From contig JASBUS010000034.1 in the NCBI GenBank assembly GCA_030147745.1, forward strand, positions 1 through 35,882: a DNA stretch of 35,882 nucleotides. Direction: 5' to 3'. Below the pieces are notes generated by a model, which was given only the letters and a program-made list of their open reading frames with translations, made no database searches and was not told the origin of the DNA. Origin of the DNA: Alphaproteobacteria bacterium (GTDB taxonomy: Bacteria > Pseudomonadota > Alphaproteobacteria > Micavibrionales > Micavibrionaceae). This document shows, piece after piece, positions 3,662-6,312 of the stretch (its first letter is position 1; every line of letters starts with the position of its first letter). The position numbers and the translations under genes are program-made.

Positions 3662-5872
3662 ATGAGCGATCTACGCCTTCAAAATTTATTACAATCAATG
3701 CGACAAAATGCTGTTCAAACCAAGGACAGCATTAAGTTATCTGATGTGCGTTTTTCAGCGCCGATTGCGCAGTTCCCTGATAATTTACAAAGCTTACTTA
3801 CTGCGCAAATTGAAGTCATCCAAGCCAAACAAAATTTTGAATTAAAAAACGCCGTATTGGCGCAGCTGCGTATTGTTGATGTATCGCCCAAAGACAAAGA
3901 GGTTCAGTTTGTCTATAAGGGCGAAAATTTTACGCTATCCTTAAAGGATATGCCTCAAGCGGATGATATATTGCGTGCGCTACATGGCGGGCAGCGTTTG
4001 GCGATTACGGTGGAAGAGGGTGCAGCGAGTAAAGCGCCTATACTTACGTTGACCTTGATTGATGATGGCAGCGCTGCGCGTATACGTGCAGGCGTGGGGA
4101 CGGCGGAGGTTGCAGCGGCCGTTGAGGGTACCGATAAAGCTGAAACAGCACCCGTCAATATACCGCCGCTGCGTGACGATGATTTTGCCTTGATGGTTGG
4201 GCGCCTTAAGCGTTTGGAGGATATTGAACAAAAGATTGATGAGTTGAGAGAGAAAATTCCGCGTAGTGATGTGAATAGCAAATCCGTCTTGCGCAGTTTT
4301 TCGGTTGATTTAATGGCGCAGCCAGATGTGCTGATCAAGCCACAAATTGAACGTCAGGTTATTGCGCTTGAAAATATCCCTGTGCCGCAGCAGGCGGCGA
4401 TGTCCTCATTCGCTGCGGTGGATATTGTGGCGGATGATCATCACCTTGTTCAGACTTTGCCGCTTAAGGTGGAATATCTTGCCACGGTCATTGCGCAATA
4501 TGCGGGCGAAGATGATGGCGCAATTCAGGATTTTCAACCCAAAGCTAATTTCAGCATTCATTCTGTCGTGATCGAAAATGAGGATACGGCTTATCTGCAA
4601 GATGAGCTTGTTGATGCGCCGCGCATGGCGGTAATTGCATATGATAATCTACCCAAAATCACCGTGCATATTGACGCGTATCAGGTTAGTTTTGATCCGC
4701 AGCAAAGCGTGAGTATACGTGATATTTTGGCGCAGGATATTCGTAGCCCTGAAATTATCGTGATTGATGAATTGCGCGGTGAAAAGGCGGCGCGTCATGT
4801 CGCGGATAATCCGTTTTTATCGACGATCAATGTTATTGATGAGCGCCCCATTGATGCGCGTCAGTTAATTGGCGGGCAGGCGGCAGGCATTACCGTTCGG
4901 GTGATTGGTGAAACGCCCAAAGGTGAAAAGATTGTGCAGCCTGAATGGCCGAATTGGCCTGCGCATAAGGCGCTAGTCTTCGCAATGAAAGAGCCGCGCG
5001 ATATGGGGCGTTTCCATGCGATTGAAACAGGCGATGTTTTAGCTGTGGAATTACCGCAAATTCAGGGCGATGAATATGGCGCTATAGAAGGCACTGGGCG
5101 CAGCGATGGCCGCGGGGGCAGTGCATCACATATTCAAAGTCCTGCGTCAATCTCTCCTTTCATGCAGCAGGCTGACTTTGTGCAAGGTTTCGCGCAATTA
5201 TTTGGCGGCGGGTTAGAAAACTTCACGGCGGCGCTCGCGTCCTCACCTGCGGTATTGTCTAATCAAATGATGGTGCCGAATATGGCGCGCCCATCTGAAA
5301 TTCCAGCAGCCTTGTTATTCTTAGTCGCGGCATTGCGCAGCGGGGATGTCGGACAGATGTTTGACAATAAAATGGAAGAGCGTTTTGCGAAACTCGGCAA
5401 GCTTGATGCTTTGCGCAGTTTTATGAGCAGCCAGAGTGAGAGCGGAGATATGCTATCACGCCAAGAACAAGGCCGCAGCGCCGGTGAATGGCGCAGCGTG
5501 ATGTTGCCGATGCTGAATGATGGGCAGATTAGCGCCATTGCCCTACATTGGACACAGCAAGGCGGCGGCGGGCAGGTGCAAGGCCAAGATGGTCAAGAAG
5601 ACGCACCCAAACGTTTCGTGCTTGATTTTAATTTAAACGTCATGGGGGATGTGCAGCTTGATGGCTTATATCAAGACCGTAAATTAAATGTCGCCCTACG
5701 TTTGGAGAAGATGCCAAGTGAAGCCATGGCGGCGCGAATACGTGCGTTTTATTTCGATGCGTTAGACCAAGTGGGCTTATCAGGTGATTTGCGTTTCCAA
5801 ACGGTGAAGCCGCATGCGGTATTATTTACGCCAGTTTATGCAGATGGTTCGGCGATGGATCAATCGCAATAA
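3662..5872 (+). CDS. FliK-like flagellar hook-length control protein (divergent)
   Basis: This 736-aa cytoplasmic-looking protein has no signal peptide or membrane segments. The N-terminal region is acidic and poorly conserved in appearance, with a coiled-coil-like stretch near residues 180-200. The C-terminal block (about 650-718) reads RFVLDFNLNVMGDVQLDGL, then a basic strand and a helix ending in DALDQVGLSGDLRFQ. This resembles the FliK C-terminal domain, in which 'LG.V.V.L' strands and a helix form the substrate-specificity switch; I have seen similar tails in Rhodospirillales proteins encoded next to flhG. A long variable N-terminal ruler plus compact C-domain fits FliK. It is the last gene of the plus-strand flagellar run. 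Identity is moderately sure. Confidence 0.55.
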   Translation: MSDLRLQNLLQSMRQNAVQTKDSIKLSDVRFSAPIAQFPDNLQSLLTAQIEVIQAKQNFELKNAVLAQLRIVDVSPKDKEVQFVYKGENFTLSLKDMPQADDILRALHGGQRLAITVEEGAASKAPILTLTLIDDGSAARIRAGVGTAEVAAAVEGTDKAETAPVNIPPLRDDDFALMVGRLKRLEDIEQKIDELREKIPRSDVNSKSVLRSFSVDLMAQPDVLIKPQIERQVIALENIPVPQQAAMSSFAAVDIVADDHHLVQTLPLKVEYLATVIAQYAGEDDGAIQDFQPKANFSIHSVVIENEDTAYLQDELVDAPRMAVIAYDNLPKITVHIDAYQVSFDPQQSVSIRDILAQDIRSPEIIVIDELRGEKAARHVADNPFLSTINVIDERPIDARQLIGGQAAGITVRVIGETPKGEKIVQPEWPNWPAHKALVFAMKEPRDMGRFHAIETGDVLAVELPQIQGDEYGAIEGTGRSDGRGGSASHIQSPASISPFMQQADFVQGFAQLFGGGLENFTAALASSPAVLSNQMMVPNMARPSEIPAALLFLVAALRSGDVGQMFDNKMEERFAKLGKLDALRSFMSSQSESGDMLSRQEQGRSAGEWRSVMLPMLNDGQISAIALHWTQQGGGGQVQGQDGQEDAPKRFVLDFNLNVMGDVQLDGLYQDRKLNVALRLEKMPSEAMAARIRAFYFDALDQVGLSGDLRFQTVKPHAVLFTPVYADGSAMDQSQ

Positions 5873-6136
5873 GAAAAAGGCCTTTGTAATACATCCAGCG
5901 GACGCCATACAAAAGCCTTATCTTCTAACCGAACATGGCGCTTTGGTATGATTTTGTTTTTTAATTTTTATACCAAAACTTTTTGTTCGTGCCGTCCTTC
6001 TTATAAAGCTTGGACGGCTTCTCCCGATTTGTTGCTTGCGGCCTCCCGCCGATTATATAAGCAACAGTTTCTTCCCTGAAACTTCAACTCACCTAAACGT
6101 TTAATCAATAAAATGATTAACAACTTGTTAATGGAT
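5870..6136 (-). ncRNA. Candidate structured small RNA, about 265 nt, serial hairpins
   Basis: A GC-richer island in AT-rich DNA contains consecutive inverted repeats. In plus coordinates: 6066-6071/6078-6083 (AGTTTC/GAAACT); 6031-6037/6059-6065 (GTTGCTT/AAGCAAC) enclosing GCGG/CCGC; 5991-5997/6012-6018 (GCCGTCC/GGACGGC); 5930-5935/5984-5989 (CGAACA/TGTTCG) enclosing 5942-5949/5970-5977 (TTTGGTAT/ATACCAAA); and a 12-bp stem 5877-5888/5908-5919. The one mismatch in the 12-bp stem is C.A on the plus strand but a G.U wobble on the minus strand, which favours minus transcription. On the minus strand a TTGACA-N16-TATTAT promoter lies upstream, and the last stem is followed by five Ts (5878-5874), like an intrinsic terminator. 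No convincing ORF occupies it. I do not recognise it as tmRNA, RNase P or SRP RNA; 6S RNA is not excluded. Confidence 0.55.
6116..6132. promoter_or_regulatory. 17-bp perfect palindrome containing a CtrA-like TTAA-N7-TTAA
   Basis: ATTAACAACTTGTTAAT is perfectly symmetric about the central C. It contains TTAA-N7-TTAA (6117-6131), the spacing of the CtrA recognition sequence known from Caulobacter and relatives. It sits at the predicted start of the minus-strand RNA and far upstream of dapB. The AT-rich context makes a chance match plausible. Confidence 0.3.
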
Positions 6137-6142
6137 AATCAC

Positions 6143-6170
6143 ATAATACGTATAATGATAATTTTGTCAA
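6143..6170 (-). promoter_or_regulatory. Sigma-70-type promoter for the candidate minus-strand RNA
   Basis: Read on the minus strand, a perfect -35 TTGACA (6170-6165) is followed by a 16-bp spacer and -10 TATTAT (6148-6143). The predicted start near 6136 gives a transcript running through the hairpin island to the T-run at 5878-5874. Confidence 0.5.
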
Positions 6171-6312
6171 ATGTTTTTTGTAACAAAATTACGTGCCGCA
6201 CTGCAAAATTGTTATATTCTTTTTAAAAACTAATTTGAGTCTTTGATTTTTTCTAAGTTATAGGCTAAATTTGGGTGTAAAAAAAAATCAAAAAAATTGT
6301 GAATAGTTGAAA
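6171..6312 (+). other. AT-rich leader upstream of dapB
   Basis: No gene is visible here. A 9-bp stem (TAATTTTGT 6159-6167 with ACAAAATTA 6183-6191) overlaps its left edge. The rest is A/T tracts, with no recognisable riboswitch and only a weak ribosome-binding site before dapB. The dapB promoter presumably lies here, but I cannot place it confidently. Confidence 0.3.

Follow-up and report, generated by a model that had tools for sequence, protein, structure and literature searches.

Passages of PMC12559287 describe CrfA of Caulobacter crescentus as a sponge RNA that sequesters SisA-D, small RNAs (sRNAs) composed of a hairpin, a single-stranded UUUCCUCCCU, and a terminator. Also in Caulobacter, CcnA sets CCCC against GGGG in ctrA, according to passages of PMC8959179. 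The locus considered here lies in a window of 35,882 nucleotides (nt), the whole stretch of DNA analysed, from an alphaproteobacterium of the family Micavibrionaceae (assembly GCA_030147745.1, contig JASBUS010000034.1). Its minus strand is predicted to encode a structured RNA, hereafter the window RNA, between an open reading frame (ORF) ending at 5872 and dapB; the proposed partner, named RNA X, is an element in the 3′ untranslated region (3′UTR) of another gene. The window's genome (G000) is compared with two same-genus relatives among the genomes searched (G001 and G002), whose sequences agree with the alphaproteobacterium isolate ARS11 and Micavibrio sp. UBA2705.

Like the window RNA, CrfA is alphaproteobacterial and possesses a G/A-rich stem loop complementary to C-rich single strands of other RNAs, as passages of PMC12559287 present it. 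The likeness is one of logic, compared by description, and the proposed titrating role is alike; unlike CrfA, the window RNA is of a kind of about 215-269 nt, is situated between a flagellar-region ORF and dapB, and has a 3′UTR as its proposed partner. RNA X resembles the alphaR8 sRNAs (SisA-D and MmgR) in its hairpin, single-stranded CUCCCU-containing stretch, and intrinsic terminator. Unlike them, it lacks the full UUUCCUCCCU core, constitutes the 3′ terminal part of another gene, showed no promoter in G000 or G002, and has no N-formylglutamate amidohydrolase identified beside it. With CcnA, a non-coding RNA that has a presumed tie to CtrA in passages of PMC8959179, the window RNA shares a CtrA-type box near its start, but it shows the opposite polarity, GGGA. 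Compared with 6S RNA (RF00013), the window RNA is likewise non-coding and structured, but it gives no match to that model.

The Micavibrio group is mostly uncultured and partly predatory. Among the matches listed in a literature search on Micavibrio small RNAs and transcriptomes, the titles and abstract openings held no regulatory-RNA study, and the words 'sRNA', 'ncRNA', and 'Hfq' were not found in the portions of the main text of the ARL-13 genome paper (PMC3189940) that were covered.

A Probable Small RNA Gene on the Minus Strand

The comparison of sequences makes it very probable that the window RNA is a real unannotated sRNA. Its marks are those by which sRNAs are recognized: a predicted promoter of its own, a predicted intrinsic terminator, and conservation in three of the three genus members searched. 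The sequence-only reading, an earlier interpretation of this DNA, had proposed just such an unannotated structured RNA, and the conservation, the compensatory changes in its stems, and the lack of an Rfam match described below all uphold that proposal.

The promoter, TTGACA-N16-TATTAT, had been pointed out in that reading and is confirmed here, with 11 of the 12 hexamer positions matching the consensus. This match alone is weak, because shuffled sequences give a mean of 2.3 promoter-like sites per 801 bases; both hexamers and their spacing are unchanged in G001 and G002. At the other end, the two arms of the terminal stem, AAGGCCTTTGTA and TACAAAAGCCTT, are 92% complementary. The single odd pair of this stem is C·A on the plus strand and U·G on the minus strand, where it is followed by the U-rich CCUUUUUCUU, exactly as had been read before. 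Furthermore, neither terminator arm, AAGATAAGGCTTTTGT or CCTTTTTCTT, varies among the three species. A simple terminator scan of the locus did not return this hairpin (P6), because it is longer than the scan pattern allows. Open frames of at least 10 codons are present in each of the three RNAs, yet no peptide is common to them.

The minus-strand 269 nt fold with -87.8 kcal/mol (z -6.62), a value reached by none of 200 dinucleotide shuffles, and the congener RNAs fold with z -4.23 (G001) and -3.85 (G002), again with 0/200 shuffles as good in each case. The earlier picture of several stems is thereby borne out as a whole, but not in one part: the stem GUUGCUU/AAGCAAC lies outside the minimum-energy fold of the window sequence, and forcing it costs 3.8 kcal/mol. 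P4 forms with a mean base-pair probability of at least 0.97 in all three species. Both P3 and its apical P3b have a pairing probability above 0.9 in G001 and G002, and both stems are found in the minimum-energy folds of these two; P3 is absent from that of the window. In the window's own sequence, P3 and P3b as drawn are less stable than the optimum by 3.8 and 3.7 kcal/mol, and it is therefore the relatives that support their formation. In the window fold, the AGGGA of the hairpin at 6066-6083 is situated in the loop with an unpaired probability of 1.0; at this point G001 and G002 fold differently. The sequence-only reading had drawn attention to a GGGAGG loop that could meet ribosome-binding sites. 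The motif does occupy the P3b loop (6047-6042) in the window and in G001; G002 has GUUAGA there, within a stem kept by two compensatory changes. A general role is not upheld, and the loop is not a core feature of the RNA, because it is absent from G002.

MAFFT failed to align P4 across the three species; the stem arms were placed by hand and the pairs were counted in Python. Both sides have changed in eight of the 47 pairs: three of these belong to P4, two to P3b, and one each to P3, P6, and the P6 apex. Of the 141 cells, six are non-pairing. Strand-specific G·U cells number seven that pair on the minus strand only and one that pairs on the plus strand only. Together with the promoter direction and the terminator tail, these wobble cells favour the minus strand.

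The same evidence bears on the possibility that the conserved sequence serves chiefly as an element of the plus strand or of the DNA itself, namely a dapB leader, a terminator of the upstream gene, or a CtrA/CcrM control region. The hairpins fold on the plus strand too (z -5.09, 0/200 shuffles as good), and a TTAA-N7-TTAA palindrome, as well as a GANTC near the dapB promoter-like block, is conserved. However, the tail, the promoter direction, and the 7-to-1 wobble cells point to the minus strand, and the compensatory changes lie in stems outside the promoter region, which leaves this explanation quite improbable.

Conservation in Blocks and Restriction to One Genus

Conservation of the window RNA, as aligned here, is concentrated in blocks. 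A 443-base DNA query gave an 86% match to G001 (positions 1-301) and a 73% match to G002 (positions 25-238); these stretches are the upstream region, promoter, and 5′ part. Two blocks, GGTGAGTTGA and AGTTTCAGGGA, are invariant across the three species and are separated by 0-2 extra A. Over the full length, the RNA is 82.9% identical between G000 and G001, versus 75.2% for dapB.

In a DNA search of 95 relatives, 85 matched at E<=1; the window's own genome and the two congeners fell below 1e-4, and the next match had E 6.8e-4. A covariance model, R1, was built from the G001 copy alone and matches all three RNAs at full length, giving 138 bits for the window copy and 86.6 bits for the G002 copy. 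Over 193 genomes, R1 gave a match at E<=1 in 30; the three genus members had E 1.2e-20 or better, and the next match 4.6e-4. The weak matches beyond the genus (the six best alignments of twelve loci) are partial or without the invariant blocks and were taken as chance. A pattern scan of named genomes gave seven stretches, two of which are the congeners; the other five were rejected, with R1 scores of 14.6 and 10.9 bits for two and no match at E<=1 for three. At the dapB loci examined in other genera (27 of the 81 genomes with a dapB match), there was no adjoining FliK-like gene, and R1 gave at most 9.1 bits; the FliK-like loci examined in other genera (27 of the 56 genomes with a match) gave no R1 match at E<=5. 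Judged by these searches, the window RNA is restricted to the genus, with a convincing copy in only three of the 193 genomes searched; a very diverged homologue could escape the R1 search because strict filters were used.

In Rfam 15 at the gathering score, only a tRNA matched in the window and no family matched the window RNA, as would fit the unrecognized family suggested earlier; seven loci, including both congener RNAs, gave 0 matches at the same score. A permissive Rfam search returned four matches for the window RNA (best E 1.9) and no family for RNA X of G000. The thought that the RNA is 6S-like and binds RNA polymerase, also raised in the sequence-only reading, draws on its being non-coding, structured, and roughly comparable in size to 6S, whose model has 187 positions. 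It fell and is now extremely improbable: RF00013 has no match at the locus, the fold has no long rod with a central bubble, and the genome's own 6S RNA (64.1 bits, above the Rfam cut-off) is located on another contig, C90. The window RNA is a new family of a known kind, interesting chiefly for its candidate partner.

A Candidate Partner in a Conserved 3′UTR

The complement of the invariant AAGUUUCAGGGA occurs exactly, in all three genomes, within an invariant segment of RNA X. This element follows the stop codon of a gene that has no Pfam match and that, in G000, is convergent with a DotI/IcmL-like gene. In the orientation of the gene that precedes it, RNA X consists of a hairpin with the loop UUCUCCC, then ACUCCCUGAAACUU, and then a hairpin with seven U. 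RNA X is 92% identical between G000 and G001 and 80% between G000 and G002, compared with 75% and 62% for dapB; in five other genera examined, the corresponding gene was not followed by it. A terminator scan lists its terminator in G002 and not in G000.

The AAGUUUCAGGGA/UCCCUGAAACUU duplex comprises 12 pairs in each species, extended to 13 in G002, with energies of -17.5, -17.5, and -18.4 kcal/mol in G000, G001, and G002 and net values of -9.5, -13.8, and -15.5 after opening both RNAs. GGGAGAA of the window RNA and the loop UUCUCCC stand in matching antiparallel order and add seven pairs in G000 and G001 (two of three genomes). The 18-nt conserved segment reaches -20.0 kcal/mol against RNA X; among 2945 stretches of 102 bases drawn at random from the window, none does so, the best being -18.9 (55 of 3000 draws were dropped as near the locus). 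The earlier idea of a trans-acting sRNA gains indirect support from this invariant block, whose complementary partner is conserved.

The exact 12-mer AAGTTTCAGGGA occurs three, six, and two times in G000, G001, and G002, and the reversed pattern occurs in none of them. The other 59 genomes of the same search gave 14 hits in 11 genomes, versus 13 for the control, which is background. Apart from the RNA itself, the three genomes together hold eight exact hits against 0.93 expected: three in RNA X, two in the 5′ untranslated region (5′UTR) of a clpA-like gene (G000 and G001), one just upstream of a G001 gene, and two in open frames, one of them peptidyl-tRNA hydrolase-like (by eye) and the other a long repeat protein.

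A possible though doubtful alternative is that the window RNA is a structured sRNA working otherwise, on other mRNAs (for example via GGUGAGUUGA) or by binding a protein, and that it matches RNA X by chance. Whatever its partner, the RNA has good support from its fold, conservation, and stem changes, GGUGAGUUGA is equally invariant as the proposed pairing block, and a single exact 12-mer match is not rare, about 0.3 being expected per genome. Against coincidence, the complement is kept in three of three genomes within a conserved untranslated element, and the second segment follows in matching order in two of three.

Less probable, and on the whole improbable, is that AAGUUUCAGGGA followed by GGGAG forms a sense-strand site for an RNA-binding protein, common to the sRNA, the clpA-like 5′UTR, and the strand opposite RNA X. 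Two GGGA motifs do stand in the same order at all three places, the second resembles the Shine-Dalgarno sequence of the clpA-like gene, and one stem pair of RNA X in G002 fits the opposite strand (by eye). Nevertheless, by eye, the strand bearing the complement is the one that suits the T-run of RNA X and, in G002, one terminator G·U, and a GGA site needs fewer than twelve invariant bases. The best-known reader of GGGA-type sites is CsrA; a search for it (PF02599) gave 0 matches in G000, the sole genus genome searched, and matches in three of 14 control genomes. That CsrA was not found in G000 argues against a CsrB/RsmZ-type RNA that titrates a protein in this genome.

Several observations weigh against pairing with RNA X or against the evidence beneath it. 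The comparison spans three species only, the stem arms behind the pair counts were placed by hand, and the full-length RNA identity between G000 and G002 is 56.4%, versus 62.4% for dapB (the alignment misplaces P4). When one mismatch is allowed, AAGTTTCAGGGA gives 43 hits versus 26 for the control in the three genomes; because this excess is small, the excess sits in the exact copies. Among the eight exact hits, several are orthologous and two lie within open frames resembling genes, and because of the orthology the nominal Poisson value of 6e-6 overstates the case. When the query is the entire RNA, energies of -17 kcal/mol or better are found for 2.7% of 591 random stretches, so the argument for pairing rests on the invariant segment and not on total energy. 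In G002 the second segment reads GGGAGC, and a UAGGGAG there would compete for the first segment of RNA X. A promoter-like site on the strand of RNA X was not found in G000 or G002, the genomes scanned; the opposite strand bears the same motif in sense, and the G002 stem pair mentioned above fits that strand better. Finally, candidate mRNA targets are unconserved: the motif is present in the clpA-like 5′UTR of G000 and G001 but not upstream of the two clpA-like genes of G002, and the G001 gene with an upstream motif has relatives in G000 and G002 without it.

Upstream of their clpA-like genes, all three species also have a stretch that follows, with variation, the pattern CTTTACTTTTTATGAAAAATA...GTTTAATC and is possibly a shared promoter or regulator site.

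A Proposed Two-RNA Circuit and the CtrA Question

From these sequences, action of the window RNA by base-pairing with RNA X, in whichever direction, has about an even chance of being correct. The narrower suggestion, by analogy, that the window RNA acts as a sponge for RNA X is the favoured direction of such pairing, but it is tentative and must be called unlikely as it stands; the 12-bp complementarity was found in three of three genomes, and RNA X is a putative regulator. Under the proposed mechanism, the minus strand from 6136 to 5868 would be an independently transcribed, structured, genus-restricted regulatory RNA gene. The invariant AAGUUUCAGGGA, located partly in a hairpin loop, would pair with UCCCUGAAACUU of RNA X, and GGGAGAA would pair with the loop UUCUCCC. 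RNA X, in turn, would be a 3′UTR-derived sRNA of the anti-Shine-Dalgarno type, and the window RNA would imitate the mRNA targets of RNA X and titrate it, in the manner of CrfA and SisA-D. In two species, the clpA-like leaders that share the motif would presumably be targets.

CtrA might control the start of the RNA via TTAA-N7-TTAA at +6 to +20, a palindrome that has the form of the CtrA box; its position would further suggest repression. Both half-sites keep the same spacing in three of three genomes, and this invariant 5′ palindrome, although it can be drawn as stem P1a, may instead function at the DNA level as a binding site. CtrA is encoded in G000 (NF045991, 417.6 bits; cut-off 350). The window contains two TTAA-N7-TTAA sites versus 1.4 expected. 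Counting against CtrA control, the pattern is not enriched genome-wide: it occurs 95, 108, and 94 times in G000, G001, and G002, compared with 145, 129, and 92 for the reversed pattern and 146, 200, and 186 for an 8-base spacing. In none of the three genomes does TTAA-N7-TTAA occur within 450 bases upstream of ctrA. The sequence upstream of ctrA contains a repeat, GTTAA(C/G)GTTGTTAATATTTGTTAATATATTAG, which the three species have in common and in which the TTAA spacing is 5 or 6, not 7. Pairing of the window RNA with the ctrA leader was considered and set aside: long-duplex energies were uninformative and no complementarity was established.

The full picture would be a two-RNA circuit in one Micavibrio-like genus, in which a leader-mimicking sponge captures RNA X with a logic like that of CrfA and SisA-D, perhaps from unrelated parts, possibly under CtrA repression, so that the cell-cycle state would set the sponge level. 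This picture is offered as a possibility that is at present doubtful.

Features and Neighbouring Genes

On the plus strand, the upstream side of the RNA holds an FlhF-like GTPase, a MinD/FlhG-type ATPase, and an ORF of 736 amino acids (aa), and dapB is situated on the downstream side; the arrangement of the 736-aa ORF, the RNA, and dapB is identical in G001 and G002. The earlier naming of the interval, between a FliK-like gene and dapB, stands for dapB, which was assigned by Pfam DapB_N and DapB_C. It is less secure for the 736-aa ORF: a Pfam search gave zero matches, so the name 'FliK-like' rests on its position beside the FlhF-like GTPase and the ATPase. A search with an alignment of the three genus copies found relatives of this ORF, chiefly of its C-terminal part, in 59 of 61 family genomes; it is therefore a conserved, unnamed flagellar-region gene.

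The GANTC at 6237 adjoins the dapB promoter-like block, and its N varies among the species (GAGTC or GAATC on the plus strand). Across the window, GANTC is seen 47 times, against a shuffle expectation of 104; each of 100 shuffles contained at least as many sites as the window. This depletion would presumably fit a genome with CcrM-type methylation. The coordinates of the features are given in Table 1.

Table 1. Positions of the window RNA, its parts, and adjoining features in the window
Feature	Position	Strand	Remarks
736-aa ORF ('FliK-like')	3662-5872	plus	stop codon 5870-5872
RNA, ~269 nt	5868-6136	minus	start placed ~7 nt past the -10; end at the U-rich tail
P6, intrinsic terminator hairpin and U-rich tail	5871-5924	minus	extends into the 3′ end of the upstream ORF
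Stem P5	5930-5989	minus	insertion, window's species only
Stem P4, GCCGUCC/GGACGGC	5991-6018	minus	three double-changed pairs
Second proposed pairing segment, GGGAGAA	6019-6025	minus	complement UUCUCCC in the RNA X hairpin loop, G000 and G001
Stem P3 with apical P3b (6051-6039)	6031-6065	minus	double changes: one in P3, two in P3b
Hairpin AGUUUC-AGGGAA-GAAACU	6066-6083	minus	AGGGA in the loop; fold of the window sequence
Invariant block GGUGAGUUGA-AGUUUCAGGGA	6073-6093	minus	RNA nt 44-64; AAGUUUCAGGGA at 6084-6073, proposed pairing segment
TTAA-N7-TTAA palindrome	6117-6131	unassigned	just past the predicted start; also readable as RNA hairpin P1a
Sigma-70-type promoter	6143-6170	minus	-35 TTGACA 6170-6165; spacer 16; -10 TATTAT 6148-6143
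Block resembling the divergent dapB promoter, TTGATT-N17-TAAATT	6233-6271	plus	conserved in all three species; outside the RNA

Implications

The locus offers a defined RNA with a promoter, a terminator, and a named candidate partner, which makes the pairing directly testable. If the window RNA is a sponge for RNA X, a G/A-rich decoy against anti-Shine-Dalgarno RNAs of the CUCCC type would exist far from Caulobacter, and such circuits would be suggested as a recurring design in the class.

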